Source: Deltaproteobacteria bacterium
GTDB taxonomy: Bacteria; Myxococcota_A; UBA796; GCA-2862545
Assembly: GCA_007693595.1 (NCBI GenBank)
Contig: REDI01000052.1
Location: 1 to 64,000 of the forward strand
Direction of reading: 5' to 3'
DNA length: 64,000 nt
Shown here piece by piece: positions 3,422 through 50,299 of this stretch; within the stretch, counting starts at the first letter, position 1; the number at the start of each line of letters is the position of its first letter. The notes below the pieces were generated by a model. The model did not search any database and was not told the origin of the DNA. It saw only the letters and a program-made list of their open reading frames with translations. A program made the translations under genes and the position numbers.

Positions 3422-3706
3422 TCAGGGATCATGTACGAAGCGTCCACCGACCTCGAGCCAGGCTAGGAGCTCCGGCTCCACCAAGCGATAGAAGACGCGA
3501 CGGCCCTCGCGATGGGAGCTCACCAGACCGTGCGCCGCCAGCAGGCGCAGGTGTTGCGAGGTACGCGGCTGAGAGAGGCGCAGGCTGCTCGAGAGCGTCG
3601 AGACGTCGAGCTCCCCTTCGTCGAGGGCGAGCAAGATCCGCAGCCGGTCGTGGTGGCCCAACGCCCCCAGCAGATCAGCCATGGAAGTGGGGGAGAGGTG
3701 TCTCAT
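3422..3706 (-). CDS. ArsR/SmtB-family winged-helix repressor
   Basis: A 94-residue DNA-binding protein. The family's helix-turn-helix is clear: ALGHHDRLRILLAL, then the recognition helix around LRLSQPRTSQHLRLLAAHGLV, then the beta-wing SHREGRRVFYRL. I see no metal-binding Cys motif (ELCVCDL type) in the recognition helix, so the inducer may not be a metal. The start ATG at 3706 has GGAG 8 bases upstream. An earlier in-frame ATG at 3778 would put the palindromic operator inside the gene. The protein most likely represses itself and the adjacent membrane-protein gene, because matching operators precede both. Confidence 0.88.
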   Translation of the reverse strand: MRHLSPTSMADLLGALGHHDRLRILLALDEGELDVSTLSSSLRLSQPRTSQHLRLLAAHGLVSSHREGRRVFYRLVEPELLAWLEVGGRFVHDP

Positions 3707-3743
3707 GGCGAACGCTCCGGCCGGGATGAGGATGGGAGAGGAG

Positions 3744-3767
3744 ACATATTCACCTGTTCGAATATGT
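3744..3767. promoter_or_regulatory. Palindromic operator upstream of the ArsR-type gene
   Basis: A perfect inverted repeat ACATATTC-N8-GAATATGT, centred 50 bases upstream of the repressor's start. It is AT-rich in an otherwise GC-rich region. An almost identical element with the same 8-base spacer lies before the neighbouring membrane-protein gene (4739-4762). Two matched sites beside one small winged-helix gene strongly suggest the binding site of that protein. Confidence 0.75.
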
Positions 3768-3794
3768 TGAGGCGACAAGAAGCACGAGGTCTGC

Positions 3795-4715
3795 TCAGCG
3801 GCGCGACTCCTCGAAGGACGCGTGACGTAGATCCTTCGTCATGTGGGTGGACCAAGCCCAGGCCACACTCCCCAGGACCAGGACCAGCGAGAGCAGGACG
3901 AGTAGAGCCACGCTCTTGGAGCGCTCCCTGCGCCAGAGCATCGCGGGGCTCAAGGTAGCGGCCCCCAGCGCCATGCCAAAACCCAGGCTTGCCGAGAGCA
4001 CAAGGGTATCGACCGACGAAAAGTAGACGTCGAGCAGCGCCCGCTTCTCGAGCGGAGGCGCCTGAGCGATCGCGGAAAAATGGCCGAAGGTCAGCTCGGA
4101 GAGCACGACGAGATCGATGCCCACCACCGCCATGGGGGCCGCGATGGCCGCCACGGCACAGAGCTGTGTTCCCGGTCCGCGGAGGTGGGTGTTGCGCAAG
4201 GCTGCCACACAGAGCACGAACGTGAGCACGTACAGCGCCAGCCGAACCGCTCCGAGTGCCATCGGAAGCACCCCTAGCGCCGCGAGGGCGATCCCCAGCG
4301 CGCCTAAGCCCAAGAGCGAGGCATAGCCTGCGACGAGCCAGCGGGGACGCTCCCCTCGGACCGTCAGGTATACGGCGCCACCCAGCACGCTGAGCGAGAG
4401 CACGGCGGCGGCGATCCCCCCGGACCATTGGGTGAGGACCCCTCGAGAGAGCGCCGCGCCCTTCAGGGTCATGCGCGACCCGTAGTGAGAGACGGTGTCT
4501 GCCGCCGACATCGCAGAGGGAAACTGAAGGGTGACCGCCCACATGACGAGGGCGAGCGGGGCGGAGAGGGCGACGGCGAGGGGGATGAGCGGTACCGGAT
4601 CTCCACGATGAAGCCGAATCAAGCTCCAAGCCACGACCGCCCCTCCGAGCAGGAGCGAGAGGATCGCGAGGCCACCGTTGATCGGGCCAATCTCGAGCGC
4701 ATGGGCGAACGTCAT
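3795..4715 (-). CDS. Polytopic membrane protein under ArsR-type control
   Basis: A 306-residue integral membrane protein with about eight hydrophobic spans. There is a larger loop around residues 85-105 (SRMTLKGAALSRGVL) and a short basic C-terminal tail. I do not recognise the family and see no transporter signature. The ATG at 4715 follows GGAGG with a 4-base gap; a start further upstream would run through the operator. The gene lies just upstream of the ArsR-type repressor on the same strand and carries its own copy of the operator. It is therefore the likely regulated target, perhaps a stress or efflux function. Confidence 0.8.
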   Translation of the reverse strand: MTFAHALEIGPINGGLAILSLLLGGAVVAWSLIRLHRGDPVPLIPLAVALSAPLALVMWAVTLQFPSAMSAADTVSHYGSRMTLKGAALSRGVLTQWSGGIAAAVLSLSVLGGAVYLTVRGERPRWLVAGYASLLGLGALGIALAALGVLPMALGAVRLALYVLTFVLCVAALRNTHLRGPGTQLCAVAAIAAPMAVVGIDLVVLSELTFGHFSAIAQAPPLEKRALLDVYFSSVDTLVLSASLGFGMALGAATLSPAMLWRRERSKSVALLVLLSLVLVLGSVAWAWSTHMTKDLRHASFEESRR

Positions 4716-4738
4716 ACTGCCTCCAAGTCGTGAATCTA

Positions 4739-4762
4739 ATATATTCGTTTTTTTGAATATGT
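4739..4762. promoter_or_regulatory. Second ArsR-type operator, before the membrane-protein gene
   Basis: ATATATTC-N8-GAATATGT. The right arm is identical to the 3744-3767 site, and the left arm differs by one base. The spacer is also 8 bases, mostly T. It lies 24 bases upstream of the ATG at 4715, where RNA polymerase would bind. Binding here would block that gene. Confidence 0.75.
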
Positions 4763-4945
4763 CAATCCCTCTCCTTGCTGGATCGGAAAACATGAGTGAC
4801 CAAGACGATCCTTCAGCGCTTTCGGGAGCGCTCCTGGACCCGCGACGGCCCGATCGTGCTCTCCCTTCGGCCTCTCAGGCTCCTCAGCGGTCGAAGGGCA
4901 GCCGCCGACGCGGTAGGGGGAGCCCGCGGCGTGACGGAGGCCCCC

Positions 4946-6211
4946 ATGCCAGAGATCGACGTGACATGGTTGCTGCCTGGCGGCGGAGGGGGAGGCATGG
5001 GGCCCGACGGTCCCGTTCGCCTCCTCGGCGCGCTGCCCGGCGATCGGGTCCGCTACACCGAGCGGAGTCGCCAGGGTCGCACCGTGATCGGAGACGTAGA
5101 CGAGATCGTGGAGCCCAGCCCCGATCGGCGCGCCCCCCCTTGCCCCCTCACCGCTCGGTGCGGCGGGTGCGATCTCGACGCGCTGCGGCCTGAGGCTCAG
5201 CTTCGCGCGAAGGCCGCCCTCATTCAACACGCCCTGCGGCTCGATTCGCCGCCGGTCGTCCACCCCTCTCCCCGGCCCAGCGGCTACCGCGCCCGGATCA
5301 AGCTGGGGATCTCCGGCCGGAGCGCCGGATACTATGCGGCGAGATCCCACGAGCTGGTGCCCGTCCCTCACTGCGGGATCGCGCGCTCCGAGCTCAACGC
5401 GGCGCTTCCCCCCCTCACCCGCTGGCTAACCGAGACCGGCGCCGACGGACTGGCCGAGGTGGAGCTGCGCTCCGACGGGGAGCGTGTGGTCTACGTCTTC
5501 TCCTCCTCAGGGGACGTGCCCCGCGCGGTCCGCGACGCGATGAGCGCCCTCGGTGACGTCGCGCTGGACGGGCGCCGGATCGCTGGCGATCCCAGCCTGG
5601 AGCTTCGCCTGCCCGAGCTCACCCTGCGCGCCTCGCCCAAGGCCTTCTATCAGGTAAACCTCGAACTGAACGCCGCCTTGGTCCGCTTCGTGGTGGAGCG
5701 GATCGAACGGATCGAGCCGACTCGGATCCTGGACCTCTACGCGGGGATCGGCAACTTCGCCCTCCCCCTGGCCCACCAGACCGGCGTCCCGGTGCTCGCG
5801 GTCGAGAGCGAAGGCCAGGCCATCGAAGACCTCAAGCACAGCGCGGCGCGGGCTGGGCTGAGCGAGAAGGTCGCGGCCTTCAGTCTGCCGGTCGAGCGGC
5901 TCGACCCCTCCCGCGAGGCCTTCGACGCCGTCGTGCTCGATCCTCCCCGCGCCGGCGCGCCAGGCGTCGTCGACAAGCTCCTGCGCAACCGCCCCCGCCG
6001 ACTGATCTACATCGCATGCTACGCGCCTAGCGCAGCACGCGACCTTCGCCCCGCCTTGCAGGCCGGCTATGTCGTCTCCGAGGTCGTCGGCTTCGACCTC
6101 TTCCCCGACACCCACCACGTCGAGACGGTGGTCGTGCTCGATCGGGGCAAGCGCGGCCCCACCCCCCGCAAGCGATCACGCGAGCGTCGCAGACGAGGCC
6201 CACGCACCTAG
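4946..6211 (+). CDS. 23S rRNA/tRNA uracil-5-methyltransferase (RlmD/TrmA family)
   Basis: A 421-residue SAM-dependent methyltransferase that makes 5-methyluridine in RNA. An iron-sulfur cluster motif of the RlmD/RumA type is visible: Cys66, Cys72, Cys75 and Cys143. Family motifs follow: FYQVN, the SAM loop DLYAGIGNFALPLA, DPPRAGAP, and the nucleophile region YIACYAPS, where the Cys should attack C6 of the uracil. The C-terminal tail is strongly basic. The usual N-terminal TRAM domain is short here. The start at 4946 has GGAGG 5 bases upstream; the longer frame upstream lacks homology. Which uridine is the target cannot be told from the sequence. Confidence 0.88.
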   Translation: MPEIDVTWLLPGGGGGGMGPDGPVRLLGALPGDRVRYTERSRQGRTVIGDVDEIVEPSPDRRAPPCPLTARCGGCDLDALRPEAQLRAKAALIQHALRLDSPPVVHPSPRPSGYRARIKLGISGRSAGYYAARSHELVPVPHCGIARSELNAALPPLTRWLTETGADGLAEVELRSDGERVVYVFSSSGDVPRAVRDAMSALGDVALDGRRIAGDPSLELRLPELTLRASPKAFYQVNLELNAALVRFVVERIERIEPTRILDLYAGIGNFALPLAHQTGVPVLAVESEGQAIEDLKHSAARAGLSEKVAAFSLPVERLDPSREAFDAVVLDPPRAGAPGVVDKLLRNRPRRLIYIACYAPSAARDLRPALQAGYVVSEVVGFDLFPDTHHVETVVVLDRGKRGPTPRKRSRERRRRGPRT

Positions 6212-6395
6212 CGACCTGCCGGCAACCCTCCCGTGGCCTGCTTCGCCTCGGAACTCCTGGCCTCTGCCCCCGCCTGAGCGCGGAGCTCCCGCAAGCTCCT
6301 CCCTCCTCGGACACCGCGCGCGACGCGGCCACGAGCTCGGTCCCTACCCCCTCCGGCCAGCGAGAGGTTAGACCTGCCCCTGAACGGAGGTCTCC

Positions 6396-7352
6396 TTGCC
6401 GCACCCCTCGCCCTCACGCCGCGCCGTCGGACATGGGCTGATCACCGCGCGGGTCCTCCTCGAGACCCTCGGGCTGTTCCTAGCGCTCGGATCCTTGGCG
6501 GTGATGCTCCTTAACCGAGGCTCGTGGTTGTGGATCGTCCCGGTCCTCGCGCAGGGCTTCTGGCTCCAGCGCCTCTACGTCGTGGGCCACGAGGCCGCCC
6601 ATCGCAAGCTGCTCCCGAGCCAGCCCGCGCTGAACGACCTGCTCGGGCAGATCGCCCTGCTCCCTCTGGGCGTACCCATGCGCATCTTCCGTCAGATCCA
6701 TGCCTTTCATCACGGAAGCAACCGCCTCGACGAGTCCACCTCCAGTCTCGAGGTCTACGTCCTGCCGCCGGGGGCGGGCCCCCTTCGTCGGGCCATGTGC
6801 TGGGTCCTCTGGTACGTCGCCGTCTTTGGCGGCGGATGGTTCTTGCACAGCCTGGTGTCGATCGTGCTCTTCCTCTTTTTGCCGCTCTCGGTGGCCCGGC
6901 GCGTCTCGCCGGCCTTCAAGGGGTGGAGCCTGGGCGATCAGCTCGCCTCCCTCGGTTGGTTCGCGGTAGCCGTCGCGGCCCACATCGGGGTCGGCTTGTG
7001 GCTAGGCGTACAGGGCTGGGCTGTGGCGTTGGGCCTCCCCTTTCTGATCTTCGCCTGGGTCTACTCCGCGCAGCTCTACGTCTACCACTACCGCACCACC
7101 CTCGGCCCCGAGGTCCGCCACCATGTCCGCGCCCTCCGCGGTGGTCCGATCCTTCGGTGGTGGCTGTTGAACCTCAACCATCACGACGTGCATCACGGGG
7201 ATCCGAGCGTGCCCTGGTACGACCTGCCCCACCGTCTCGCGCCTCCTCCCCTCGATCGCGCCGAGCCCGGTGGACCCCAGACCTTCATCCAGGGGGTGCT
7301 GCACCAGCTCCGAGGGCCTCAGATCGTCACCTCGCACCCAGGTCGCCCGTGA
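6396..7352 (+). CDS. Fatty acid desaturase-like di-iron membrane enzyme
   Basis: A 318-residue membrane protein with the three His boxes of the desaturase/hydroxylase superfamily: HEAAH (65-69), HAFHH (102-106) and HHDVHH (about 262-267). Four or more hydrophobic spans separate them. Such enzymes use a non-haem di-iron centre and oxygen to desaturate or hydroxylate acyl chains or other lipids at the cytoplasmic membrane. The start is TTG at 6396, with GGAGG 5 bases upstream. The stop overlaps the GTG of the GNAT gene (GTGA), so the two are translationally coupled. The exact substrate is unknown. Confidence 0.85.
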   Translation: MPHPSPSRRAVGHGLITARVLLETLGLFLALGSLAVMLLNRGSWLWIVPVLAQGFWLQRLYVVGHEAAHRKLLPSQPALNDLLGQIALLPLGVPMRIFRQIHAFHHGSNRLDESTSSLEVYVLPPGAGPLRRAMCWVLWYVAVFGGGWFLHSLVSIVLFLFLPLSVARRVSPAFKGWSLGDQLASLGWFAVAVAAHIGVGLWLGVQGWAVALGLPFLIFAWVYSAQLYVYHYRTTLGPEVRHHVRALRGGPILRWWLLNLNHHDVHHGDPSVPWYDLPHRLAPPPLDRAEPGGPQTFIQGVLHQLRGPQIVTSHPGRP

Positions 7353-7984
7353 TCCTTCGACCCGCCACCCACGCCGACATCCCTGCCATGCTCGACCTCC
7401 GGGCCTCGCTGACCTTCGCGGAGCCGGAAGGCGCGACCTCGACCCGAGGAGGCTTCCTGCTCGGCACCGACGCCGACGGCTACGCGCAGCGCATCGCCGA
7501 AGCGACCAGCCTCGTCATGGACGAGGGCGGCACGGTCCAGGGCTTCGCCATCATCCTGCCCGATCCCGTCTTCCGCGCCTCCGAGATCTGGGCCCGCCGC
7601 GACGAGGTCCGCTGGACGTTGGATCCCGACGCCTTCCAGCACGCCTCGCTCTGCTACTTCGACCAGCTCGCGGTACGTCGCACGGGCTACCGCAGCCACC
7701 GCTTCGGCGCCGCCATGGCGCTCCGGGCGGTGCTCGACATCGTCCCAGACCACGACTACCTCGTCACCGCGACGGTGGTAGAGCCGGTGTGCAACCTCGC
7801 CGCCGTGCCGTACCTTCGCCGTGTCGGCGCGCGGATCGTCGGCCGCATCGACGAGACCTACCCCGTGATCGGCGATCTCAAGAGCGACGTCTGGCTCACA
7901 AGCCGGACCCAGATCCTTGAGCGGGTCGCCTCCCCGCGCTCCGCCGCAGAGGCCTGGGTGGTGGAGCGGGCGGGGGCGGCGTGA
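7349..7984 (+). CDS. GNAT-family N-acetyltransferase
   Basis: A 211-residue acetyltransferase. It begins with the typical ILRPATHADIPAMLDL. It continues through the acceptor strands to the acetyl-CoA region (YFDQLAVRRTGYRSHRFGAAM) and ends with a beta-bulge/helix region containing EPVCNLAAVPYLRRVGARIVG. The GTG start overlaps the desaturase stop, and its own stop overlaps the GTG of the lysine 2,3-aminomutase gene. Coupling to an aminomutase suggests, by analogy with AblA/AblB, that it may acetylate beta-lysine. That is inference, because AblB proteins are usually longer and no substrate motif is visible. Confidence 0.85.
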   Translation: MILRPATHADIPAMLDLRASLTFAEPEGATSTRGGFLLGTDADGYAQRIAEATSLVMDEGGTVQGFAIILPDPVFRASEIWARRDEVRWTLDPDAFQHASLCYFDQLAVRRTGYRSHRFGAAMALRAVLDIVPDHDYLVTATVVEPVCNLAAVPYLRRVGARIVGRIDETYPVIGDLKSDVWLTSRTQILERVASPRSAAEAWVVERAGAA

Positions 7985-9075
7985 CCCACCTCTTCGCGCA
8001 CGTCTCGCCGTCGGACTGGGCCGACTGGCGGTGGCAGCTCCGCCATCGCCTGCGCACCGCCGACGCCCTGGAGCAGATCGTCCCGCTCACCGACGACGAG
8101 CGTCGCGCCTGCGCGATCACCGCCGATCGCTTCAGGCTCGGCGTCACCCCCTACTATGCGAGCCTCATCGATCCCGACGATCCCGCATGCCCCATCCGCC
8201 GCCAAGCCATCCCGACGAGCGCCGAGGCCCTCATACACCCTGACGAGCGCGCGGATCCGCTGTCCGAAGAGCGCGACATGCCCGTGCCCGGGCTGACCCG
8301 CCGCTACCCCGATCGGGTGCTCCTCTACACCACCCACACCTGCGCGGTCTACTGCCGGCACTGCACCCGTCGGCGCAAGGTCTCCGATCCGGGCAGCGCC
8401 CCGCCCCGCCAGCACCTCGACGCCGCCATCGACTGGATCGCCGAGCACCCCGAGATCCGCGACGTGATCCTCTCGGGCGGCGATCCCCTCTCGCTGCCCG
8501 ACCGCACCCTGGATCGCCTGCTCGGCCGCCTCGCCGCGATCCCCCACGTGCAGATCGTGCGCATCGGTACCCGCAACCCCACCAGCCTGCCCCAGCGCAT
8601 CACCCCCGAGCTGTGTGAGATCTTCCGGAAGTACCCTCCCCTCTACCTCATGACCCACTTCAACCACGAGCGGGAGTGCACGCCGCAGGCCGCTCAAGCT
8701 GCCACCCGCCTCGCAGAGGCTGGCTGCGTGATGGCGAACCAGGCGGTGCTCCTGCGCGGGGTCAACGACTCCCCGGAGGCCCAGATCGCCCTGAGCCACG
8801 CCCTGCTCGCCATGCGGATCCGGCCCTATCGCCTCTACCAGTGCGATCTCTCGGAGGGGACCTCCCACTTTCGAACCTCGCTGCGTCGCGGGATCGAGAT
8901 CCTCGACGCCATGCGCGGGCGCACGAGCGGCCTGTCGATGCCCGAGCTCATCGTCGACCTGCCCGACGGGCACGGAAAGGTGCCGATCCACCCCGGTCAC
9001 GTCGTGGAGCGGGCCGCGGATCACTGGGTCCTGCGGAGCTACCAGGGGGAGCGGGTGGTGGTGCCCGAGGTCTGA
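7981..9075 (+). CDS. kamA: Lysine 2,3-aminomutase (radical SAM, PLP)
   Basis: A 364-residue radical SAM enzyme converting L-lysine to L-beta-lysine. The cluster motif CxxxCxxC is Cys121, Cys125 and Cys128. Glycine-rich ILSGGDPLSL (163-172) binds SAM. The PLP lysine is Lys333 in VDLPDGHGK. The residues that hold the substrate epsilon-amino group in the clostridial enzyme, Asp293 and Asp330, match Asp289 and Asp326 here. The spacings to each other (37) and to the PLP lysine (7) are exactly the same, which favours true lysine specificity over EpmB-type activity. It is the last gene of a tightly coupled operon (desaturase, GNAT, aminomutase). Beta-lysine could feed an acetylated osmolyte or another product. 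Confidence 0.9.
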   Translation: MTHLFAHVSPSDWADWRWQLRHRLRTADALEQIVPLTDDERRACAITADRFRLGVTPYYASLIDPDDPACPIRRQAIPTSAEALIHPDERADPLSEERDMPVPGLTRRYPDRVLLYTTHTCAVYCRHCTRRRKVSDPGSAPPRQHLDAAIDWIAEHPEIRDVILSGGDPLSLPDRTLDRLLGRLAAIPHVQIVRIGTRNPTSLPQRITPELCEIFRKYPPLYLMTHFNHERECTPQAAQAATRLAEAGCVMANQAVLLRGVNDSPEAQIALSHALLAMRIRPYRLYQCDLSEGTSHFRTSLRRGIEILDAMRGRTSGLSMPELIVDLPDGHGKVPIHPGHVVERAADHWVLRSYQGERVVVPEV

Positions 9076-32316: not shown

Positions 32317-34365
32317 ATGGATGTTCACTTTCTAGGCGCCGCTGGCAGCGTGACCGGCTCTCGAACGCTGGTCAGCGTCGAAGGCACCCACCTGCTCGTC
32401 GACTGTGGCTTGTTCCAAGGGTTCAAGGCGCTTCGGGCCCGCAACTGGCGCCCCCTCCCCTTCGACGCAAGAAAGCTCGACGCCGTCTTGCTCACCCACG
32501 CACACATCGATCACTCAGGCTACCTTCCACGTTTGGTCAAAGAAGGTTTTCGAGGTCCAGTCTGGTGCACCCAAGCCACCGCCGACCTCTGTGGGCTCCT
32601 CCTTCCCGACAGCGGACACCTCCAAGAAGAAGACGCCCGCTACGCCAACAAGCGAGGATTCTCCAAACACAACCCGGCTCAACCCCTGTACACCGAGCAG
32701 GAAGCGAGGACGGCGCTCGCCTCTCTCGCCCCGGTTCCCTGGGGGGAAGAGGTACGAATCGGACCGATCAGCGCCACGTTTCTTCCCGCAGGTCACATCC
32801 TGGGCGCCTCGATGGTCCACCTGGACGGACCCGATGGCAGCGCCCTGTTCACCGGCGACCTCGGGCGGTTGCGCGACCCGCTCATGAACCCTCCCGCCGC
32901 CCTCGATCTCGCCCCCGATCTCCTGATCCTCGAGTCCACCTATGGAGATCGCGCCCACTCTGAACAGGACCCCCTCGATCAGCTCGAGGCGGTCGTCACT
33001 CGGACCATCGAGCGCGACGGGGTCGTCCTGATCCCAGCCTTCGCCATCGGTCGTGCCCAGGCCGTGCTCCTGGGTCTTCATCGACTGATCGCCCAAGGGA
33101 GGCTGCCCGCGAGCCTCCCCATCTACCTGAATAGCCCCATGGCCGTCGATGCCACCGAGCTCTACCTGCGCCATGCCGCCGACCATCGCCTCTCCGCAGC
33201 CGAGACCCGCGCGATGATCGCGACAGCGAAGCTCATCCGCACGGTGCAAGAGAGCGAGCGACTCAACCAGCACAAGGGCCCCGCCGTCATCCTGAGCGCG
33301 AGCGGTATGCTCACCGGCGGTCGCGTGCTCCACCACCTCAAGGCCTTCGCCCCCGACCCAAAGAATACGTTGTTGCTCGCCGGCTTCCAAGCGGCGGGAA
33401 CGCGCGGCGCATCGATCGCAGCGGGCGCCGAATCCGTGCGGATCCACGGAGAAGAGGTCCCCATCGCCTGCGAGGTGGCACGCATCGATGCCTGGTCCGC
33501 CCATGCCGACGCCAACGAGATCCTGACCTGGCTCGGGCGGGCCTCGAAGGCGCCCGGCCAGATCGTGCTCAACCACGGAGAGCCCCAGGCCAGCGATGCC
33601 CTCCGCCAGCGGATCGAGCGGGAGCTCGGCTGGCACACCTCGGTGGCGGAGCTCGGGCAACTCGTGACGCTGGGGCGAAAGAGCGACGCCCCCCTCGTGG
33701 TCGATCCAGATCCCCCGAGCCCGTCGACGTCCTCGGTCCCGGCCCCGATGGACCGCAGCGTAGACTCCCTCGGGGCGCGCGCCAGCCTCGTGGTCATCGG
33801 AGGTCAAGACCTGCCCGATCTCGCTCGGGCGGAGCGTGATCACACCCGCCTGTCGGTCGCGCTGGCGGAGCGACCTGATGATCAGCGCGCCCGGCGCGCC
33901 CTGGGCATCGCGGAGCGAGCCTTGGCCCACGCGCGCTGGCGTCAACAGCTCCCCCTGCTCGCCCAGCGCGCCAAAGCGCTCGGAGGTCTCGCGATCCTCA
34001 CCCTCGAAGGCGACGGGCTACCCAAGGAGCTGACCGCTGCCTGTCGCCAGATCGAACAACCCATCGTCCCGATCGACGAGCTCGCGCTGCGCGCCGGCGA
34101 ACTCCCCTCGCACTGTGCCGCCGTGATGGTTTTCCCGGGAGGGCTGCGCACCCTCGCGACGCTCTACGCGCTCCTCGAGTCCAGCCATGCCCGCCGATGC
34201 CCCTTCGTCTTGATCGGCCGACGCTTCTGGCACGACGTGGCAGGCATCGACCAGCTCGTGAGCGAGGGCATGCTCGCCGAAGACGCGACCCCCGTGCTCC
34301 ACGCCGAGGACGTCGAGCAGGCTTGGGCCATGCTCGAGACTCGGCTGAAGCGTCAGCTCGGCTGA
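32317..34365 (+). CDS. Metallo-beta-lactamase/beta-CASP nuclease fused to a LOG-like domain
   Basis: 682 residues. Residues 1-455 form an RNA nuclease of the CPSF73-like beta-CASP group. The zinc motif HAHIDH is 61-66, followed by His160, Asp181 (FTGDLG), ESTYGDR (206-212), His395 (SAHAD) and His420 (LNHGE). A Pro/Ser linker (461-485) leads to a second domain of about 195 residues. That domain carries VMVFPGGLRTLATLYALLE, which resembles the PGGxGTxxE motif of LOG-type nucleotide phosphoribohydrolases, and a typical closing part (CPFVLIGRRFWHD, then EGML). The LOG-like motif is imperfect. The ATG at 32317 has GAGGA upstream. The end overlaps the convergent uracil-DNA glycosylase gene by 13 bases. 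Confidence 0.85.
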   Translation: MDVHFLGAAGSVTGSRTLVSVEGTHLLVDCGLFQGFKALRARNWRPLPFDARKLDAVLLTHAHIDHSGYLPRLVKEGFRGPVWCTQATADLCGLLLPDSGHLQEEDARYANKRGFSKHNPAQPLYTEQEARTALASLAPVPWGEEVRIGPISATFLPAGHILGASMVHLDGPDGSALFTGDLGRLRDPLMNPPAALDLAPDLLILESTYGDRAHSEQDPLDQLEAVVTRTIERDGVVLIPAFAIGRAQAVLLGLHRLIAQGRLPASLPIYLNSPMAVDATELYLRHAADHRLSAAETRAMIATAKLIRTVQESERLNQHKGPAVILSASGMLTGGRVLHHLKAFAPDPKNTLLLAGFQAAGTRGASIAAGAESVRIHGEEVPIACEVARIDAWSAHADANEILTWLGRASKAPGQIVLNHGEPQASDALRQRIERELGWHTSVAELGQLVTLGRKSDAPLVVDPDPPSPSTSSVPAPMDRSVDSLGARASLVVIGGQDLPDLARAERDHTRLSVALAERPDDQRARRALGIAERALAHARWRQQLPLLAQRAKALGGLAILTLEGDGLPKELTAACRQIEQPIVPIDELALRAGELPSHCAAVMVFPGGLRTLATLYALLESSHARRCPFVLIGRRFWHDVAGIDQLVSEGMLAEDATPVLHAEDVEQAWAMLETRLKRQLG

Positions 34366-35066
34366 TCGCCTCGAAGCCGGGCGGCGACCGCCTGGAGATC
34401 GTGGAGCGCCAGGCGCTTGTCTTGGGGTTTTCGCAGCAGGTAGGCGGGATGAAAGGTCGGCATCGTCGGGACGCCGTCGACCGTGAACCACCGGCCGCGC
34501 GCACGGGTGATCCCCTGGGAGGTTTGAAGGAGGCTCTGAAACGCGACCCGCCCGAGCACCAGCAGCACCTTGGGTCGGACCGCTCGGATCTGGCGCTGAA
34601 GGAAGGGCAGACAGGTCGCCACCTCGTCGGGCAGAGGATCGCGGTTCTTCGGAGGCCTGCACTTGACGACGTTGGCGATATAGACCTGCTCCCGCGGCAA
34701 TCCAATGACACGCTCGAGCATCTTGTCGAGCATCTCGCCCGCCGCACCGACGAAGGGCTCGCCCCGGAGATCTTCCTCTTTACCAGGAGCTTCACCGATC
34801 ACCATCAACGGAGCCGAGGTGTCGCCAGCACCAAAGACCAGGTTCGTGCGCTGCGCGCAGAGCCCACAGCGGCGGCAGTCCCCGAGATCGTCGCGGATCT
34901 GCGTGAGGGTGGCCGGTGCGTCGACCGAGGACTGCACGGCATCAGCTGGGAGTTCGGCGCGTGTCGAGCCGATCGGATCTTGGACGTGGCCTGCGGCGAG
35001 CTGGGCTTGGACGACAGCGCGCACGTCGGCCACCAGCGCTGCGAGCTCTTCGTCGATCGTGCTCAA
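34353..35066 (-). CDS. Uracil-DNA glycosylase, family 4 (iron-sulfur type)
   Basis: 237 residues. The DNA-repair enzyme removes uracil from DNA. Family 4 features are present: the cluster cysteines (RRCGLC, then VVKC and ATC), the catalytic region MVIGEAPGKEEDLRGEPFVG, and the DNA-intercalation motif FHPAYLLR. An N-terminal helix of about 60 residues precedes the domain. The TTG start at 35066 follows GGAGG and overlaps the maf stop (TTGA), so it is coupled to maf. The longer frame upstream reads through maf. Confidence 0.92.
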   Translation of the reverse strand: MSTIDEELAALVADVRAVVQAQLAAGHVQDPIGSTRAELPADAVQSSVDAPATLTQIRDDLGDCRRCGLCAQRTNLVFGAGDTSAPLMVIGEAPGKEEDLRGEPFVGAAGEMLDKMLERVIGLPREQVYIANVVKCRPPKNRDPLPDEVATCLPFLQRQIRAVRPKVLLVLGRVAFQSLLQTSQGITRARGRWFTVDGVPTMPTFHPAYLLRKPQDKRLALHDLQAVAARLRGDQPS

Positions 35067-43071: not shown

Positions 43072-43962
43072 ATGGAAGAGCTGCACGCCAGCTATATCCT
43101 GACGGACGACGGAGAGCAGATCTACGTGCACGCGGTCGGCGAGGGTACACCCCTCATCTGTTGCAACGGGGCCGGGGTCTCGACCTTCTTCTGGTCCTAT
43201 CTGGTCGATCACTTCAAGCGCGACCACAGGGTCATCCTCTGGGACTACAGGGGCCACGGACGCTCCTCCCTCCCCCAGGATCCCCCGTCTGCCGATCTCT
43301 CGATCGAGCGCTTCGCCTCCGACCTTCGGCTCGTCATCGAAGCCCTCGAACTTGCGGAGCCTGTCATCCTGGTCGGCCACTCCATGGGTTGCCAGGTCAT
43401 TCTCGAGTACGCAGCTCGACACCCCAACGAAGTTCGCGCCTTGGTTCCTATGCTCGGCACCTACGCGCGCCCTCTCGACACCCTCCTCGACAGCCCGCTG
43501 AGCAAACCCATCTTCGATCTCGTCAAGCGCACCGGCATCGCGATGGGCAAGGGGGGTCGTCGTTGGTTTCGACCGCTGGTCGGGGCGCCTTGGGCTTTCG
43601 ACCTCGCGCGACGGGCCGGCTTGGTCGATCGGCACTACGCCAACCGGCAGGATCTTGAGATGTACCTCGACCACCTCAACCAGATGGACCCCGAGGTGCT
43701 CTTCCGCACTATCGAGCTCATCGCCGAGCACGACCTGACGGATCGACTGCCCAGCATTCAGGTCCCCACCTTGGTCGTCGCGGCCGAGAACGACCTGTTC
43801 ACCCCCATGCAGTGCTCCGAGAAGATGGTCGAGCTGCTCCCTGATGCCGAGCTCTTCGTCCTCGCACAGGGCAGCCACGCTGCGCTGGTGGAACACCCCG
43901 AGACCATACACCTCCGACTTGAACGCTTCTTCGCCGAGGCCCTTCAGCGCCCCAAAGACTGA
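43072..43962 (+). CDS. Alpha/beta-fold hydrolase
   Basis: 296 residues. The alpha/beta hydrolase motifs are present: the oxyanion region CCNGAGVSTFFW, WDYRGHGRSSLP, the nucleophile elbow VGHSMGCQ (Ser), VVAAENDLFTPMQ (acid), and GSHAALVEHPE (His). No signal peptide is seen. The substrate cannot be deduced; relatives include esterases and epoxide or ester hydrolases. The end overlaps the convergent thioesterase gene by 19 bases. Confidence 0.88.
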   Translation: MEELHASYILTDDGEQIYVHAVGEGTPLICCNGAGVSTFFWSYLVDHFKRDHRVILWDYRGHGRSSLPQDPPSADLSIERFASDLRLVIEALELAEPVILVGHSMGCQVILEYAARHPNEVRALVPMLGTYARPLDTLLDSPLSKPIFDLVKRTGIAMGKGGRRWFRPLVGAPWAFDLARRAGLVDRHYANRQDLEMYLDHLNQMDPEVLFRTIELIAEHDLTDRLPSIQVPTLVVAAENDLFTPMQCSEKMVELLPDAELFVLAQGSHAALVEHPETIHLRLERFFAEALQRPKD

Positions 43963-44393
43963 TCTCGAAGCGCCTGGGTGAGCCGCGCAGGGAGGCGTGT
44001 TGGACGACCCGAAGGGGTCACACAGCCGAGCCGCGCCGCCCCCTCTGCGAGGAGCTGATCACGCTCGACATGCACGATCTGGTGCGCCACGAGCAACGTG
44101 GCGTGATGGAGCTCGTGCACCCAGCTCTGCACCTCGATCTCGTCGTCGTATCGGGCTGAAGCGACATACCTGCACCAACTCTCGACCACCGGCAGGTAGG
44201 CCCCCCGCTCGACAAGCTCGTGGTAGGGCAGCCCATGCGCCCGCATCAGCTCAGCGCGGCCCGCCTCGAACCACCGAAGATAGTTGGCGTAATACACGAT
44301 CCCCGCCGCGTCGGTATCGCCGAAGCGAACCCGCTCGGTGTGTCTGTGGGGCGCGACGTGATCGGGCCTGATCAGACGGGGAGTCCGGAGCAT
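43944..44393 (-). CDS. Acyl-CoA thioesterase (4HBT/YbgC family)
   Basis: 149 residues with a hot-dog fold. The motif RFGDTDAAGIVYYANYLRWFEAGR contains the catalytic Asp, with Tyr nearby. It continues with the typical VVESWCRYVASARYDDEIEVQSWV. It should hydrolyse acyl-CoA or acyl-ACP esters. Its start overlaps the stop of the RecG-like gene (TGATG), so it is translated from the same message as greA and the RecG-like protein. Confidence 0.9.
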   Translation of the reverse strand: MLRTPRLIRPDHVAPHRHTERVRFGDTDAAGIVYYANYLRWFEAGRAELMRAHGLPYHELVERGAYLPVVESWCRYVASARYDDEIEVQSWVHELHHATLLVAHQIVHVERDQLLAEGAARLGCVTPSGRPTRLPARLTQALRDQSLGR

Positions 44394-47044
44394 CAGCGAC
44401 GCCTCCGCCGGCGCCGACGTCGACCCCCGCCTGCGTGGACCTGGATCGGACAGGGGCTAGGCAGCAGATCGGGCCAGCGAGCCCGCAGGTAGCGAGCGAT
44501 CTCGACCGAGCCTCCCCGCCGAAGCGCGCTGTCGTCTTCGAGGATCGCGCGCGCATCCGCCCTCGCGGCGAGCAAGCTGTCGAGGTCACCCAGAGGATCC
44601 AGCCAGGAGAACCGGACGGGCTCACCCGGCTCCCCCGCCACCATCGCCCCCAGCCCGCGCTGCTCGAGCTCCTGCACCGCCACCTGAAAGCCGTGGGTAC
44701 TCTCTGCGAACCGCCGAACCCGAAGAACGCCAGGCTCATCGGGCTCTTCGCCGGTGATCAGGAGACACTGGGGCGGAGCATCGGCCACGGCGATGTGACC
44801 GCGGACGCGATGCAGCCTGGACAGGCTCATTCGATCCGCCTGCTCTACGATGACCAGCCTGGCCCCGCAGACAGCAGGTCCGGCCTCGAAGTGGGTGGTC
44901 GTCAGCAAGACGTCGATGCTGCGGTCCCGGAAGGCCGCCCAGGTCTGATAGCGGTCCTCGCGGCTCATGCCTCCATGAAAGAGCCTCACCCGGTGCTCGG
45001 GGAAGATGCGGCTCTGGAGGGTGGCGACGATGCGCATAGCCTCGGGAGCGTCGATGGCATCGGCACCCCGGCGCATCGGAAAGACGATGATCACCTGCCC
45101 GCCCTCGCGAACCACCGCGCTGGCGCGATCGTAGGCCGTCTCGCGCTCCGACGGCTCGATGACCTCGCAGGGAACGGGCGCACCCGGATAGTGGCGCAGA
45201 ACGGTAAGGTCGAAGGTTGGGTACGCTTCGAGGAGGACGGGCGATGGGATCGGCGTCGATGTGATCACCAGGAGGTCCGGGGAGGGGCTCCGGAGAGCGT
45301 GTACCTTGGCAGGGATCGACCCAAAGGTGTCGCGCTCGCCGGCCACCACCAAGCCCAGACGCCGAAACTCGATGGCGGGATCGAGCAGGTCGGAGGTTCC
45401 ATACAGCACATGGACCTCACCCCGCTTGATGGCGTCGAGCTGGGAGCGCGAGGGAGGCTCGACGTACAGCCGCGCCACCAATCCCAGCTCTCGCAGCAGG
45501 GGCTCGGAGAAGGCGTAGCGCTGCTCAGCCGTCGCCCGATCCGGCGCGACCACCAAGACCTGATGCTTGTTCTCGGCCACGATGAGGGTGCTGAGGAGCG
45601 CCACGAGCCCCTTGCCGGCGCCCACCTCCCCCGTCAGGACCCGGCGCATGGGCGCGCTGCCCCGAAGGTCGCGCTTGATGTCTTCGAGGGCGAGCTGCTG
45701 CTCGTCGGTGAGCTCGACCGAGGCTTGTTGATCGGCGGTGCCGATGAGCCGATGGAGGATCCCGTGGGAGAGCCCTCGCTCGCGCGTGCCTTGAAAGCGG
45801 GACCACAAGAGCCCAAGGTGGACGAGGAGCGACTCGTCGTAGGCTAGGCGCTCGGAGCCTGCGCGGCTGCGGTCGCCGCGTTGATGGGCCTGATGAAGGG
45901 CCTCCCCCAGGCCCACGAGGCCCCGCCGCTCGCGGAGCGCAGGGGGCAGCGGGTCGATCAGCTTGTCGGCATCTTCGAGGCACTGTGCGATTAAGGCACG
46001 GACCTCGACATCGTCGACCCCCTCGATCCCGTACTTGGCCAGTCGCGCAGCGTGCTTGCCGTCGTCGAAGCTGAGCTCCGGCTCATGCAGGACCGCCATC
46101 CCTCCTTCGTCTATCTGGACGTCGCCCACCAGGACGACGCGCTGCCCGACCTCGAGCCGATCCATGAGCCACTCGGGCACGCCCCCCGTCCAGCGAGCCG
46201 AGGTGGGGCCCGCTCCGTGAAGGACCACCTCGCCGAGGCGAGAGCCATCGGGTCGAAGCCGCGTCGAGCGACGGCGCACGCGGCCGCCGACCGCCTGCCG
46301 CCCCGAAGACTGGATCCGCCCCGCTCCCAAGATCGGATGGACGACCTCGAAGTGGATGGGTCGACGCCCAAGGAGCTGGCCGGTTCGGGTGATTCCTTGT
46401 GCGACGAGGGCCTGCAGGACCGTGTCGGGGGCGTCGAGATCCATGATGTCGCCTCCCCCAAAGCTGTCGTCACTCCAGCGCACGCTGGGTGGCTCGGACG
46501 CGGGGGCGCTCTGGCTTGGAGCGGGCGCGCTCTTGGCGGTCCTGCGCTTCTTCTTGGAGGAGGACTTGCGGCGCCCCCTGCGACCGGACTTGCCACGTCG
46601 CGAAGTCCGCTCTGGCGGCCGCTCCGACTCCCGCTCCGGATCGGGGGCGGGCTTCGCGCGCTCCATGGGCAGGGGCAACCCCAGCAGGCGATCCAGTGCG
46701 CTGAGACTCGCGTGGATCTCGGCGAGACGAGCTTGCTGCTGGTCCTCGGGGAGGGTGTCGAAGTCTTGAACCGACCGCCGCATCTGCTCTAGGTACTCGG
46801 ACGCAACCGGGGGACACGGCGAGGACGAGGCGAGATCGATCCACCGCGAGGTGACGATCCCGAGGTATCGGACCGCCGACGGGCCTCGTCTCAGAGCGAA
46901 GGCCACCACCCGCCGAACCGGCGAGAGGGCCGCGTCGAGAGCGACCGGGTCCTCGCGCTCGGGCTCAGGGGACAACGCTTCGGGCGTCTGCATGGGCGCT
47001 CCATCGGGCGGGGCGACGAACCAGCGAGGGATCCCCCGTGGCAT
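44393..47044 (-). CDS. RecG-family helicase-like protein with degraded ATPase motifs
   Basis: 883 residues. The order of a RecG helicase is visible: an Arg/Lys-rich N-terminus, an OB-type wedge (FEVVHPILGAGRIQSS, VGQRVVLVGDV), LTDEQQLALEDIKRDL, the Walker A position (GEVGAGKG, about 468-475), TSTPIP (motif III), and FHGGMSREDRYQTWAAF with LLTTTHFEAG. Key residues are changed: the Thr after the Walker Lys is Gly; the DExH box reads GERD; motif V reads EAGPAVCGA; and motif VI, normally QLRGRVGR, reads RVRGHIAVA. ATP hydrolysis is doubtful. The last nine residues are all Arg. It lies 12 bases after greA. Confidence 0.8.
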   Translation of the reverse strand: MPRGIPRWFVAPPDGAPMQTPEALSPEPEREDPVALDAALSPVRRVVAFALRRGPSAVRYLGIVTSRWIDLASSSPCPPVASEYLEQMRRSVQDFDTLPEDQQQARLAEIHASLSALDRLLGLPLPMERAKPAPDPERESERPPERTSRRGKSGRRGRRKSSSKKKRRTAKSAPAPSQSAPASEPPSVRWSDDSFGGGDIMDLDAPDTVLQALVAQGITRTGQLLGRRPIHFEVVHPILGAGRIQSSGRQAVGGRVRRRSTRLRPDGSRLGEVVLHGAGPTSARWTGGVPEWLMDRLEVGQRVVLVGDVQIDEGGMAVLHEPELSFDDGKHAARLAKYGIEGVDDVEVRALIAQCLEDADKLIDPLPPALRERRGLVGLGEALHQAHQRGDRSRAGSERLAYDESLLVHLGLLWSRFQGTRERGLSHGILHRLIGTADQQASVELTDEQQLALEDIKRDLRGSAPMRRVLTGEVGAGKGLVALLSTLIVAENKHQVLVVAPDRATAEQRYAFSEPLLRELGLVARLYVEPPSRSQLDAIKRGEVHVLYGTSDLLDPAIEFRRLGLVVAGERDTFGSIPAKVHALRSPSPDLLVITSTPIPSPVLLEAYPTFDLTVLRHYPGAPVPCEVIEPSERETAYDRASAVVREGGQVIIVFPMRRGADAIDAPEAMRIVATLQSRIFPEHRVRLFHGGMSREDRYQTWAAFRDRSIDVLLTTTHFEAGPAVCGARLVIVEQADRMSLSRLHRVRGHIAVADAPPQCLLITGEEPDEPGVLRVRRFAESTHGFQVAVQELEQRGLGAMVAGEPGEPVRFSWLDPLGDLDSLLAARADARAILEDDSALRRGGSVEIARYLRARWPDLLPSPCPIQVHAGGGRRRRRRRRR

Positions 47045-47056
47045 CGCTCACCTGGG

Positions 47057-47533
47057 CTATTCGTATCGGACCTCGATGATCTCCCAGCGCTGCTGACCGC
47101 CGGGGGTGGGCACGACGACCTCATCGCCCTCGCTTCGGCCGATGACGGCCTTGGCGACCGGGGCCTTGTAGCTGATGAGGCCTTCGTTGACGTTGGATTC
47201 GTGTTCCCCGACGATCCGCCAGGTTCGTTCTTCACCACTGTCGGTGTTCTCGATGACCACCGTGGTGCCAAAGACCACCCGATCGGTCTTGGGCAGCTCG
47301 CGCACGTCGATGACCTGCGCGGACGCGAGCAGGTGCTCGAGACGCCGGATCCGACCTTCGAGGAGAGACTGGCGCTCCTTGGCATCGTCGTACTCGGAGT
47401 TCTCGCTCAGGTCACCGTGCGCGCGCGCTTCTTCGATGTCGCGCACGATCGCGGGCCGCTCGACCGACTTGGCGTGCTTGAGCTCGGCCTCGAGGGCCTT
47501 GTACCCTTCGGGAGTGATGGGGTTCTGCTCCAT
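47057..47533 (-). CDS. greA: Transcription elongation factor GreA
   Basis: 158 residues. The N-terminal coiled coil (1-75) holds the catalytic acidic tip ARAHGDLSENSEYDDAKERQ. The C-terminal FKBP-like domain ends with ISYKAPVAKAVIGRSEGDEVVVPTPGG. GreA rescues backtracked RNA polymerase by stimulating transcript cleavage. AGGTGA lies before the ATG. It is the first gene of a unit with the RecG-like protein and the thioesterase. Confidence 0.96.
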   Translation of the reverse strand: MEQNPITPEGYKALEAELKHAKSVERPAIVRDIEEARAHGDLSENSEYDDAKERQSLLEGRIRRLEHLLASAQVIDVRELPKTDRVVFGTTVVIENTDSGEERTWRIVGEHESNVNEGLISYKAPVAKAVIGRSEGDEVVVPTPGGQQRWEIIEVRYE

Positions 47534-47879: not shown

Positions 47880-48350
47880 CTAGAACCGCCCGTCGTGATC
47901 CAACCGGGCGTGCGAGGAGAAGGGCAGCGAGACGGCGCCGGCCAGGGGGAGTTCGAGGTGGGCTTCCCAGTCGCAACGGACCTCTCGCCCCCCATCGGGC
48001 TCAAGCTGAAAAGCACAGTGTTCTTCACTCACCGACAGGTTGATCCGCTGATGATCCAGTTCGTACTGCAAGCGCTGTCGCGCGGCCGCATCGCCGAAGT
48101 CTCGCCAGTCCAGCACGACCGCGAGCACGATCCAGTCCATTCGCGCGTCATCGATCAGGGGGGGGCCGACGATCCAACCCGCAGTAAGCCCCAAGCCGGC
48201 GACGAGCACCGCCAGACCGAGCGCTGCGCCCTGCATGGCCGCGCGGAGCCACCCGCGGGAAGCCCCGGCCTGCTGTGGCTCCAGATCGGATGGGACCGGA
48301 GCGGACTGCACCGAAGCGACGCGACGAGGTCCTTGCTCTTCGACGTGCAC
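47880..48350 (-). CDS. Hypothetical single-span membrane protein
   Basis: About 156 residues. A polar N-terminus of about 40 residues is followed by one strong membrane span (AALGLAVLVAGLGLTAGWIV) and an outer domain with two Cys (EEHCAFQL and EVRCDWEA) that could form a disulfide. I recognise no family. The start is unsure: GTG at 48350 has GGAG 8 bases upstream. Longer frames would enter the 3' end of lepA. Confidence 0.6.
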   Translation of the reverse strand: MHVEEQGPRRVASVQSAPVPSDLEPQQAGASRGWLRAAMQGAALGLAVLVAGLGLTAGWIVGPPLIDDARMDWIVLAVVLDWRDFGDAAARQRLQYELDHQRINLSVSEEHCAFQLEPDGGREVRCDWEAHLELPLAGAVSLPFSSHARLDHDGRF

Positions 48351-48426
48351 CGTGGCCAACTCCGTACTCCGACCCTCGGAGAGAACTGAGTCTACCCTAG
48401 TCGGTGGCGAAGCGCGAGGCCACCCA

Positions 48427-50232
48427 TCAGCCTCGCTCGACCGAGAGCACGGCCAGGAAGGCCTTTTGGGGGACTTCGACACTCCCCACGGCCTTCATGC
48501 GTTTCTTGCCCTCTTTCTGGCGCTCTAGGAGCTTGCGCTTGCGGCTGATGTCGCCGCCGTAACACTTGGCGGTGACGTTCTTTCGGTAGGCCTTGACGGT
48601 AGACCGGGCCACGACTCGAGTTCCGATAGCCGCCTGAATCGGAATATCGAACATCTGTCGTGGGATATGTTCCTTAAGTTTCTTGGTCATACCCGAGCCC
48701 TTGTAGTGGGCGTCGTCGCGGTGGCAGATGAGCGAGAGCGCGTCGACCGACTCCCCGTTGATCAGGATGTCGAGCCGGACCAGATCGTCGGGCTGCCAGC
48801 GGACGATGTCGTAATCCATCGAGGCGTAGCCTCGGGTCGCGCTCTTGAGCTTGTCGAAGAAGTCGAAGACGACCTCGGCATAAGGAAGATCGTAGACGAG
48901 CACAGCCCGCGTCTCGGAGCTGTAGGAGAGGTCGACCTGTTGGCCACGGCGCTCGGTACAGAGCTTGAAGACCGCGCCGAGGTGCTCGGCGGGCACATGG
49001 ATCGTGACCCGGGCTATCGGCTCGGCGATGTGCTCGATCTCGCCCAGCGAAGGCAAGTGGGAGGGGCTGCGGATCTCGAGCAGCTCGTCGGTCTTGCACA
49101 AGACTTGATAGACGACGCTCGGCGCGGTCGTGATCAGGTCGAGATCGTACTCGCGCTCCAGGCGCTCCTGGACGATCTCCATGTGCAGGAGCCCGAGAAA
49201 GCCAACTCGAAAGCCAAGCCCCAAGGCGTCGCTGCTCTCGGGCTCCGTCGTGATGGCCGCGTCGTTGAGCTTGAGCTTCTCGAGCGCATCTCGGAGGTCT
49301 TCGTAATCAGCGCTTTCGACCGGATAAACCCCAGAGAAGACCATGGGTTTCGTCTCTTGAAAGCCGGGGAGAGGCTCGGCGGCACCCCGCAGGCTCAGCG
49401 TGACGGTATCGCCCACCCTCGCGTCGCGAAGGTCTTTGATGCTGGCGATGATAAAGCCGACATCGCCCGAGGCCAAGACATCTCGCTCCACGGCGACCGG
49501 CGTAAAGACTCCGAGCTTCTGCGCATCATAGACGGCTCCGGTCGCCATAAGCTTGATGCCATCGCCCTTGCGCAAGATCCCGTCGAAGACCCGCACGAGC
49601 ACGATCACCCCGACGTACTTGTCGAACCAGGAGTCGATGATCAGCGCTCGGAGCGGTTCGGACTCGTGGTCGTCGGGGGGTGGGATCTGCTGGACGATGG
49701 CCTCGAGGAGTTCGTCGATGCCCAGCCCGGTCTTGGCCGAGGTCAACACCGCGCCGGAGCAGTCGAGGCCGATACCGTCTTCGACCTCACCCACGACGCG
49801 ATCAGGGTCCGCGCTGGGCAGGTCGATCTTGTTGATCACAGGAACGAGGGCCAGATCTTGCTCGATGGCCAGGTAGACGTTGGCGAGGGTCTGGGCTTCG
49901 ACCCCCTGGGCCGCGTCGACCACGAGCAGGGCCCCTTCGCAGGCGGCGAGGGAGCGGCTGACCTCGTAGCTGAAGTCGACGTGACCGGGCGTGTCGATGA
50001 GGTTGAGCTGGTACTCGACGCCATCGCGAGCGCGGTACAGCATGGAGGCCGTCTGGGCCTTGATGGTGATTCCCCGCTCCCGCTCGATGTCCATGGAGTC
50101 GAGGAGCTGGGCCTTCATGTCGCGGTCGGCCACCGCTCCAGTTCGCTGGAGCATGCGATCGGCGAGCGTGGACTTGCCGTGATCGATGTGGGCGATGATG
50201 GCGAAGTTGCGAATGCGCGAGATACGGTCCAA
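48427..50232 (-). CDS. lepA: Elongation factor 4 (LepA)
   Basis: A 601-residue translational GTPase that acts on stalled or early ribosomes. G motifs: [10 protein letters not shown], the switch I region [17 protein letters not shown] and NKIDLPSAD. The LepA-specific C-terminal domain follows, with [24 protein letters not shown]. The TTG start at 50232 has GGAGGA 5 bases upstream and matches the usual N-terminus ([19 protein letters not shown]). The longer frame adds 22 unrelated residues. Confidence 0.97.
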
Positions 50233-50299
50233 GCAGATCCTCCGACGGTCGGCGGGCATAACCGACCGTAGCGAACGTGTCTGGCCAAGCGCGACCACC

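Follow-up and report, generated by a model that had tools for sequence, protein, structure and literature searches.

A RecG ortholog with degenerate motor motifs and a poly-arginine tail, possibly kept as a non-motor scaffold across a bacterial order

Results

The locus and its RecG ortholog

The window, by which we mean the whole 64,000-nucleotide stretch of DNA analysed here, carries on its minus strand a gene for an 883-residue RecG relative (44393..47044) that is the sole RecG of its genome and that we call pseudo-RecG. Its frame begins with an ATG at 47044, is translated through 883 codons to 44393 and lies 12 bp downstream of the stop of greA (47057..47533, minus strand), the ancestral upstream neighbour. 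At the other end, the ATG of a YbgC/FadM-family thioesterase ORF (43944..44393, minus strand) overlaps the recG stop; this gene is a neighbour of recG in the window and not generally across the family. The window also holds, at 47880-50298 on the minus strand, lepA (recognised by eye) and then a short ORF resembling a conserved small membrane protein that two other loci (L090 and L094) encode between lepB and pyrR. A pyrR-pyrB-pyrC block, which precedes greA-recG in other families, is absent from the window. Two further, putative, open frames of the window (plus strand 4795-6208 and minus strand 34179-34941, as strand offsets) have Arg/Lys-rich ends, KRSRERRRRGPRT and RRARRDRGR.

Pseudo-RecG is a RecG by descent, as judged from full-length profile homology combined with the orthologous position next to greA. 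The RecG model NF008168 matches residues 81-859 (E 1e-105, 354 bits vs a cut-off of 718) and TIGR00643 also matches (E 3e-82, 277 bits vs 659), so that coverage is nearly end to end with both scores below half of the curated cut-offs. The NCBIfam RecG equivalog cut-off is passed by no RecG of the order; taken alone this is a weak test, since sister families f8 and f9 have intact RecGs that, at 564-628 bits, likewise fall short of the TIGR00643 cut-off. Alignment to intact RecG profiles with hhalign gave a probability of 100 across 771 columns, and the best solved relative is Thermotoga maritima RecG (1gm5). Mfd models match only the SF2 core (residues 440-802), and the RNAP-interaction and UvrB-like modules of Mfd were not found in the protein. 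The window protein is thus a positional, vertical ortholog of RecG.

Predicted structure

The AlphaFold model is confident (mean pLDDT 83, pTM 0.72) and, together with the profile comparison, bears out the claim of a preliminary description of this DNA that the RecG fold is traceable end to end. All features of the gene given from here on lie on the minus strand. The model begins with an N-terminal helical domain (residues 33-121, 46682..46948; pLDDT about 84-96) that hhalign aligns with the N-terminal region of intact RecG profiles. This is followed by a disordered basic linker, SRRGKSGRRGRRKSSSKKKRRTAK (residues 127-191, 46472..46666; pLDDT below 50), and by a wedge-like OB fold (residues 231-337, 46034..46354) in which T286 replaces the junction-contacting Phe (E. 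coli F97); the model then continues through two helicase lobes and a C-terminal helix to a tail of low confidence. Basic stretches occur in the linker region of many but not all orthologs, and in some intact outgroup proteins too. The OB fold is that modelled by AlphaFold, Pfam RecG_wedge having no match in the window protein; that Pfam model matched only one of 25 scanned members, by inference the intact control L119. Foldseek returned 1gm5 as the top PDB match to the model and Mfd after it, with low whole-chain TM-scores (0.38/0.44) that would be expected if the domains were arranged differently. Near the C-terminus, R856-W857 (44474..44479) looks by eye like the localisation motif of E. coli RecG, R682 W683 (PMC4027168), and a C-terminal Arg-Trp is visible by eye in many members of the order.

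Loss of motor and wedge residues

Motif comparison, the count of nine terminal arginines and recurrence across the order all agree with the earlier proposal that this protein has lost helicase motifs and gained an Arg9 tail. Motif I (Walker A) reads GEVGAGKG (45608..45631; E. coli GDVGSGKT), with T changed to G, and in motif Ia (45518..45547) E. coli T326 has become D502. Motif II is GERD (45329..45340) where active RecG has DEQH; motif V is TTHFEAGPAVC (44867..44899; E. coli TTVIEVGVDVP), and motif VI is RLHRVRGHIAVA (44783..44818; E. coli QLHQLRGRVGRG), with both Arg fingers gone and new conserved R743 and R746 in the region. The features of an active helicase (Walker A GKT, DExH, Arg fingers, wedge Phe and TRG) were not found in the window protein.

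The order-wide comparison uses a single MAFFT alignment that was later extended by 16 rows. Six ATPase positions were scored (Walker A K and T, Walker B D and E, and two Arg fingers), and in the 44 orthologs with all six readable between one and four survive, usually two. Of the 50 aligned rows of the order, none keeps the Walker B Asp, two keep the motif VI Arg finger R584 and four have T or S following the Walker A lysine, while intact outgroup RecGs retain the ATPase positions, G019 excepted. The motif Ia Thr, motif III Arg, motif V Asp, TRG Gln and wedge Phe are mostly gone as well. The wedge Phe, which contacts the fork in RecG (PMC7889586), is present in 3/36 proteins of the order vs 14/14 intact RecGs; in the TRG motif, E. 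coli Q640 and G642 are lost and R609 and R630 partly kept. HD2 has gained conserved basic positions in the order: those of E. coli G542, E543, Q577 and Q580 are all mostly R there.

Given these substitutions, catalysis has very probably been lost in the RecG of the whole order. Because the Walker A Lys (36/50 rows) and Walker B Glu (41/50) are often kept, the proteins may still bind nucleotide or, in some lineages, hydrolyse it slowly. One could imagine an unusual helicase that is still active, its drifted motifs replaced by other residues: the fold and many core residues are retained, and changes of D to E or T to S are, on their own, tolerable in some ATPases. We regard this as very unlikely, as the Walker A Thr, the Walker B Asp and both Arg fingers are mostly lost together across the order, along with the motif Ia, III and V, TRG and wedge residues named above, and as some members of families f1 and f2 lack even the Walker lysine. 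A related idea is that ATP or another nucleotide is bound without turnover through the Walker lysine and Glu and toggles a conformation or a partner. The frequent retention of these two residues, and of the Q-motif Gln (29/36), fits such a switch; however, in f1, to which the window belongs, some members have lost the lysine or the loop and yet keep the tail (APSETQQM, GRPGDDRD, GSTDAGVD), and f2 includes ADAGAGAH with the tail still present, so that we consider a switch unlikely, if less so than an active helicase.

Copy number and distribution

The genome (4.9 Mb, 98.4% complete) yields two strong TIGR00643 matches, pseudo-RecG and a separate Mfd that is intact (GDVGFGKT, DEEH, RGRVGRG); it also encodes PriA, RuvB and an SSB with the canonical DDDIPF acidic tip. 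A search for a second, intact recG, as had been suggested, found none in this genome or in the members of the order searched. With a profile of the degenerate RecG, the protein was detected in 60 of the order's 63 genomes, spread over six families (a hand count from the search table, with Mfd matches set aside), and no RecG of the order came near an intact score among 19 relatives and then 40 genomes of the class. The relatives named here are nearly all MAGs. Among the degenerate members is that of L098, the UBA796 MAG DBIS01; UBA796 is listed as a GTDB order of Myxococcota (PMC11821767). The order of the window, an uncultured one of myxobacteria-like bacteria, is therefore probably UBA796. 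Four MAG records of the order (L100, L106, L107 and L117) are titled 'Klebsiella pneumoniae' or 'Bifidobacterium breve' and are apparently mislabelled. A plasmid search gave only ordinary RecG-like matches at about 30% identity, and we found no published account of a degenerate RecG in the open-licence papers searched. Assembly or sequencing error is ruled out as a source of the altered RecG, the pattern recurring in dozens of MAGs.

The poly-Arg tail and selection

The protein ends in exactly nine Arg (residues 875-883, 44396..44422). A C-terminal basic run, nearly all Arg, stands at or near the end of 45/45 complete ORFs from the six families, a count that leaves out five further ORFs interrupted by contig ends; this recurrence argues that the tail and altered motifs of the window are not due to chance. 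The longest unbroken basic run is 5-11 residues in 44 of these ORFs and 3 in one (G025, RRRSRRTRSR), and the tail is the best conserved segment of the protein (mean column identity 0.81 vs 0.57 in HD2). Expansion of a simple repeat is ruled out by the mixed codons (CGA CGT CGG CGC CGG CGG AGG CGT CGC). A general preference of the order for Arg tails is likewise ruled out within the sampled loci, where such ends occur in 62 of 1044 distinct long frames and most of these are recG.

Pairwise dN/dS was estimated by the Nei-Gojobori method for 13 pairs, of which one samples the same two genomes again; some dS values approach saturation. At 0.10-0.41, the ratios show that the gene is under purifying selection. 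It does evolve faster than greA (about 52% vs 77% identity, window vs G001), and RecG has been lost elsewhere in the phylum, both of which might be expected of a decaying, functionless pseudogene. With long ORFs intact in dozens of genomes, these dN/dS values and a tail conserved in every complete ORF, we find that explanation scarcely credible.

Origin

The order RecGs form one clade (SH-aLRT 100; this and the tree below are quick trees with SH-aLRT support). RecG is intact and tail-less in f8 and f9, sister families that belong to the same class. Adjacency of greA and recG is seen on both sides of this split and in some more distant classes, and several members of the order, like sister lineages, have pyrimidine genes upstream of greA-recG (by eye). 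As intact and degenerate recG both follow greA, RecG was altered in place, and the adjacency predates the degeneration. The preliminary description had taken the coupling with greA as a hint of a link to stalled transcription; an ancestral adjacency, shared with the intact recG loci of sister families and of other classes, does not bear this out.

A second degenerate RecG (ADPRAGAF, HEGE) was noted at L058 (G019, the one genome of family f7), in a 1559-residue open frame (3467-8143, minus strand) that lacks the C-terminal Arg tail and whose N-terminal part contains long low-complexity stretches, both acidic and basic. A second quick tree places f7 with the order at a support of 96 and gives it a very long branch. 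It is possible, though we are unsure, that the motif loss is slightly older.

By our own count, half of the near-complete genomes surveyed in other classes of the phylum (23 of 46) yield Mfd alone and no match to RecG, which suggests repeated RecG losses within the phylum. RecG activity therefore appears to be dispensable there. The preliminary description allowed that absence of any other RecG, in a genome that needs one, would count against loss of the motor; with RecG missing from half of these genomes, this objection lacks force.

Discussion

A plausible scenario is that, in the ancestor of the order, the ATPase and translocation machinery of the ancestral RecG was inactivated. The Walker B Asp would have become Glu, the Arg finger R584 His and the motif Ia Thr Asp, the Walker A Thr would have given way to Gly or some other residue, and GVDVP in motif V would have been altered; the protein would also have gained a flexible C-terminal extension finishing in a poly-Arg run. 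Motor function would then be gone, with the RecG domain framework kept as a scaffold independent of ATP hydrolysis, and the basic tail, joined in many members by the basic N-terminal linker, would hold a polyanion, either nucleic acid or the acidic tip of SSB. Since RecG activity seems dispensable in the phylum and the protein is nevertheless retained here, something besides translocation is selected. We favor this scenario, in which an inactivated RecG is retained as a non-motor scaffold with a poly-Arg contact tail, and on the comparative evidence think it probable. That the whole order has turned its only RecG into a poly-Arg-tailed, non-motor architectural protein with a new, non-junction role, and lives without RecG activity, is a broader proposal to which we give even chances.

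As to what the scaffold may contact, the newly conserved Arg of lobe 2, like the Arg tail, suggest a polyanionic partner. The tail may contact nucleic acid or another polyanion; nucleic acid and the SSB acidic tip are the most evident candidates. The residues of the E. coli RecG pocket for SSB-Ct are not conserved in the order; they are uninformative on SSB binding because the intact outgroup RecGs used here vary there too. The preliminary description had suggested a DNA- or RNA-binding scaffold. A scaffold is probable, but a form of it that binds DNA junctions is weakened by the loss of the wedge Phe and TRG Gln.

Poly-Arg binds both DNA and RNA, and an RNA- or ribosome-associated pseudohelicase, holding RNA by its tail, is another reading of the same features. 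The loss of the wedge junction residue and of the DNA-tracking motif Ia would suit it, as would greA and lepA as neighbour genes in the window. Nevertheless, the greA neighbourhood is common to active RecG lineages, and a domain scan detected no RNA-binding domain in the window protein; we hold this reading to be improbable, somewhat more so than a nucleotide switch.

RecG is present in nearly all bacteria (PMC3542137) and is studied as a fork-remodelling motor. An order with a motor-dead RecG as its only copy separates the catalytic role of RecG from any structural role, and its some 60 divergent orthologs are a natural set for learning what the scaffold alone does. There is also a practical side, in that homology-based annotation may label the dead protein an 'ATP-dependent DNA helicase'. 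That a sole RecG without motor parts is kept, with a new tail, suggests that it has been turned into something other than a helicase.

The closest known system is the RecG translocase itself (TIGR00643 / PRK10917; T. maritima 1gm5 and E. coli RecG), with which pseudo-RecG shares domain order, fold, a full-length profile match and a greA-recG locus like that of related phylum members; it differs in lacking the ATPase, translocation and wedge-junction residues and in having the C-terminal poly-Arg tail. Mfd has a related SF2 core, but the genome has its separate intact Mfd and the window protein has the architecture and locus of RecG. Yeast Utp25, a pseudohelicase of the SSU processome (PMC9539457), is alike by description only, as a helicase-like protein called a pseudohelicase, and is a eukaryotic ribosome assembly factor. 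There is precedent for inactivated helicase domains in RecC and AddB, where the fold persists without most or all motifs and has a binding role in DNA repair (PMC4824097). The window protein likewise keeps a motif-poor helicase fold; however, the RecC and AddB domains belong to SF1 and work in complex with an active motor, whereas pseudo-RecG belongs to SF2 and is encoded alone, and so gives this small group of inactivated helicases a bacterial example from SF2.
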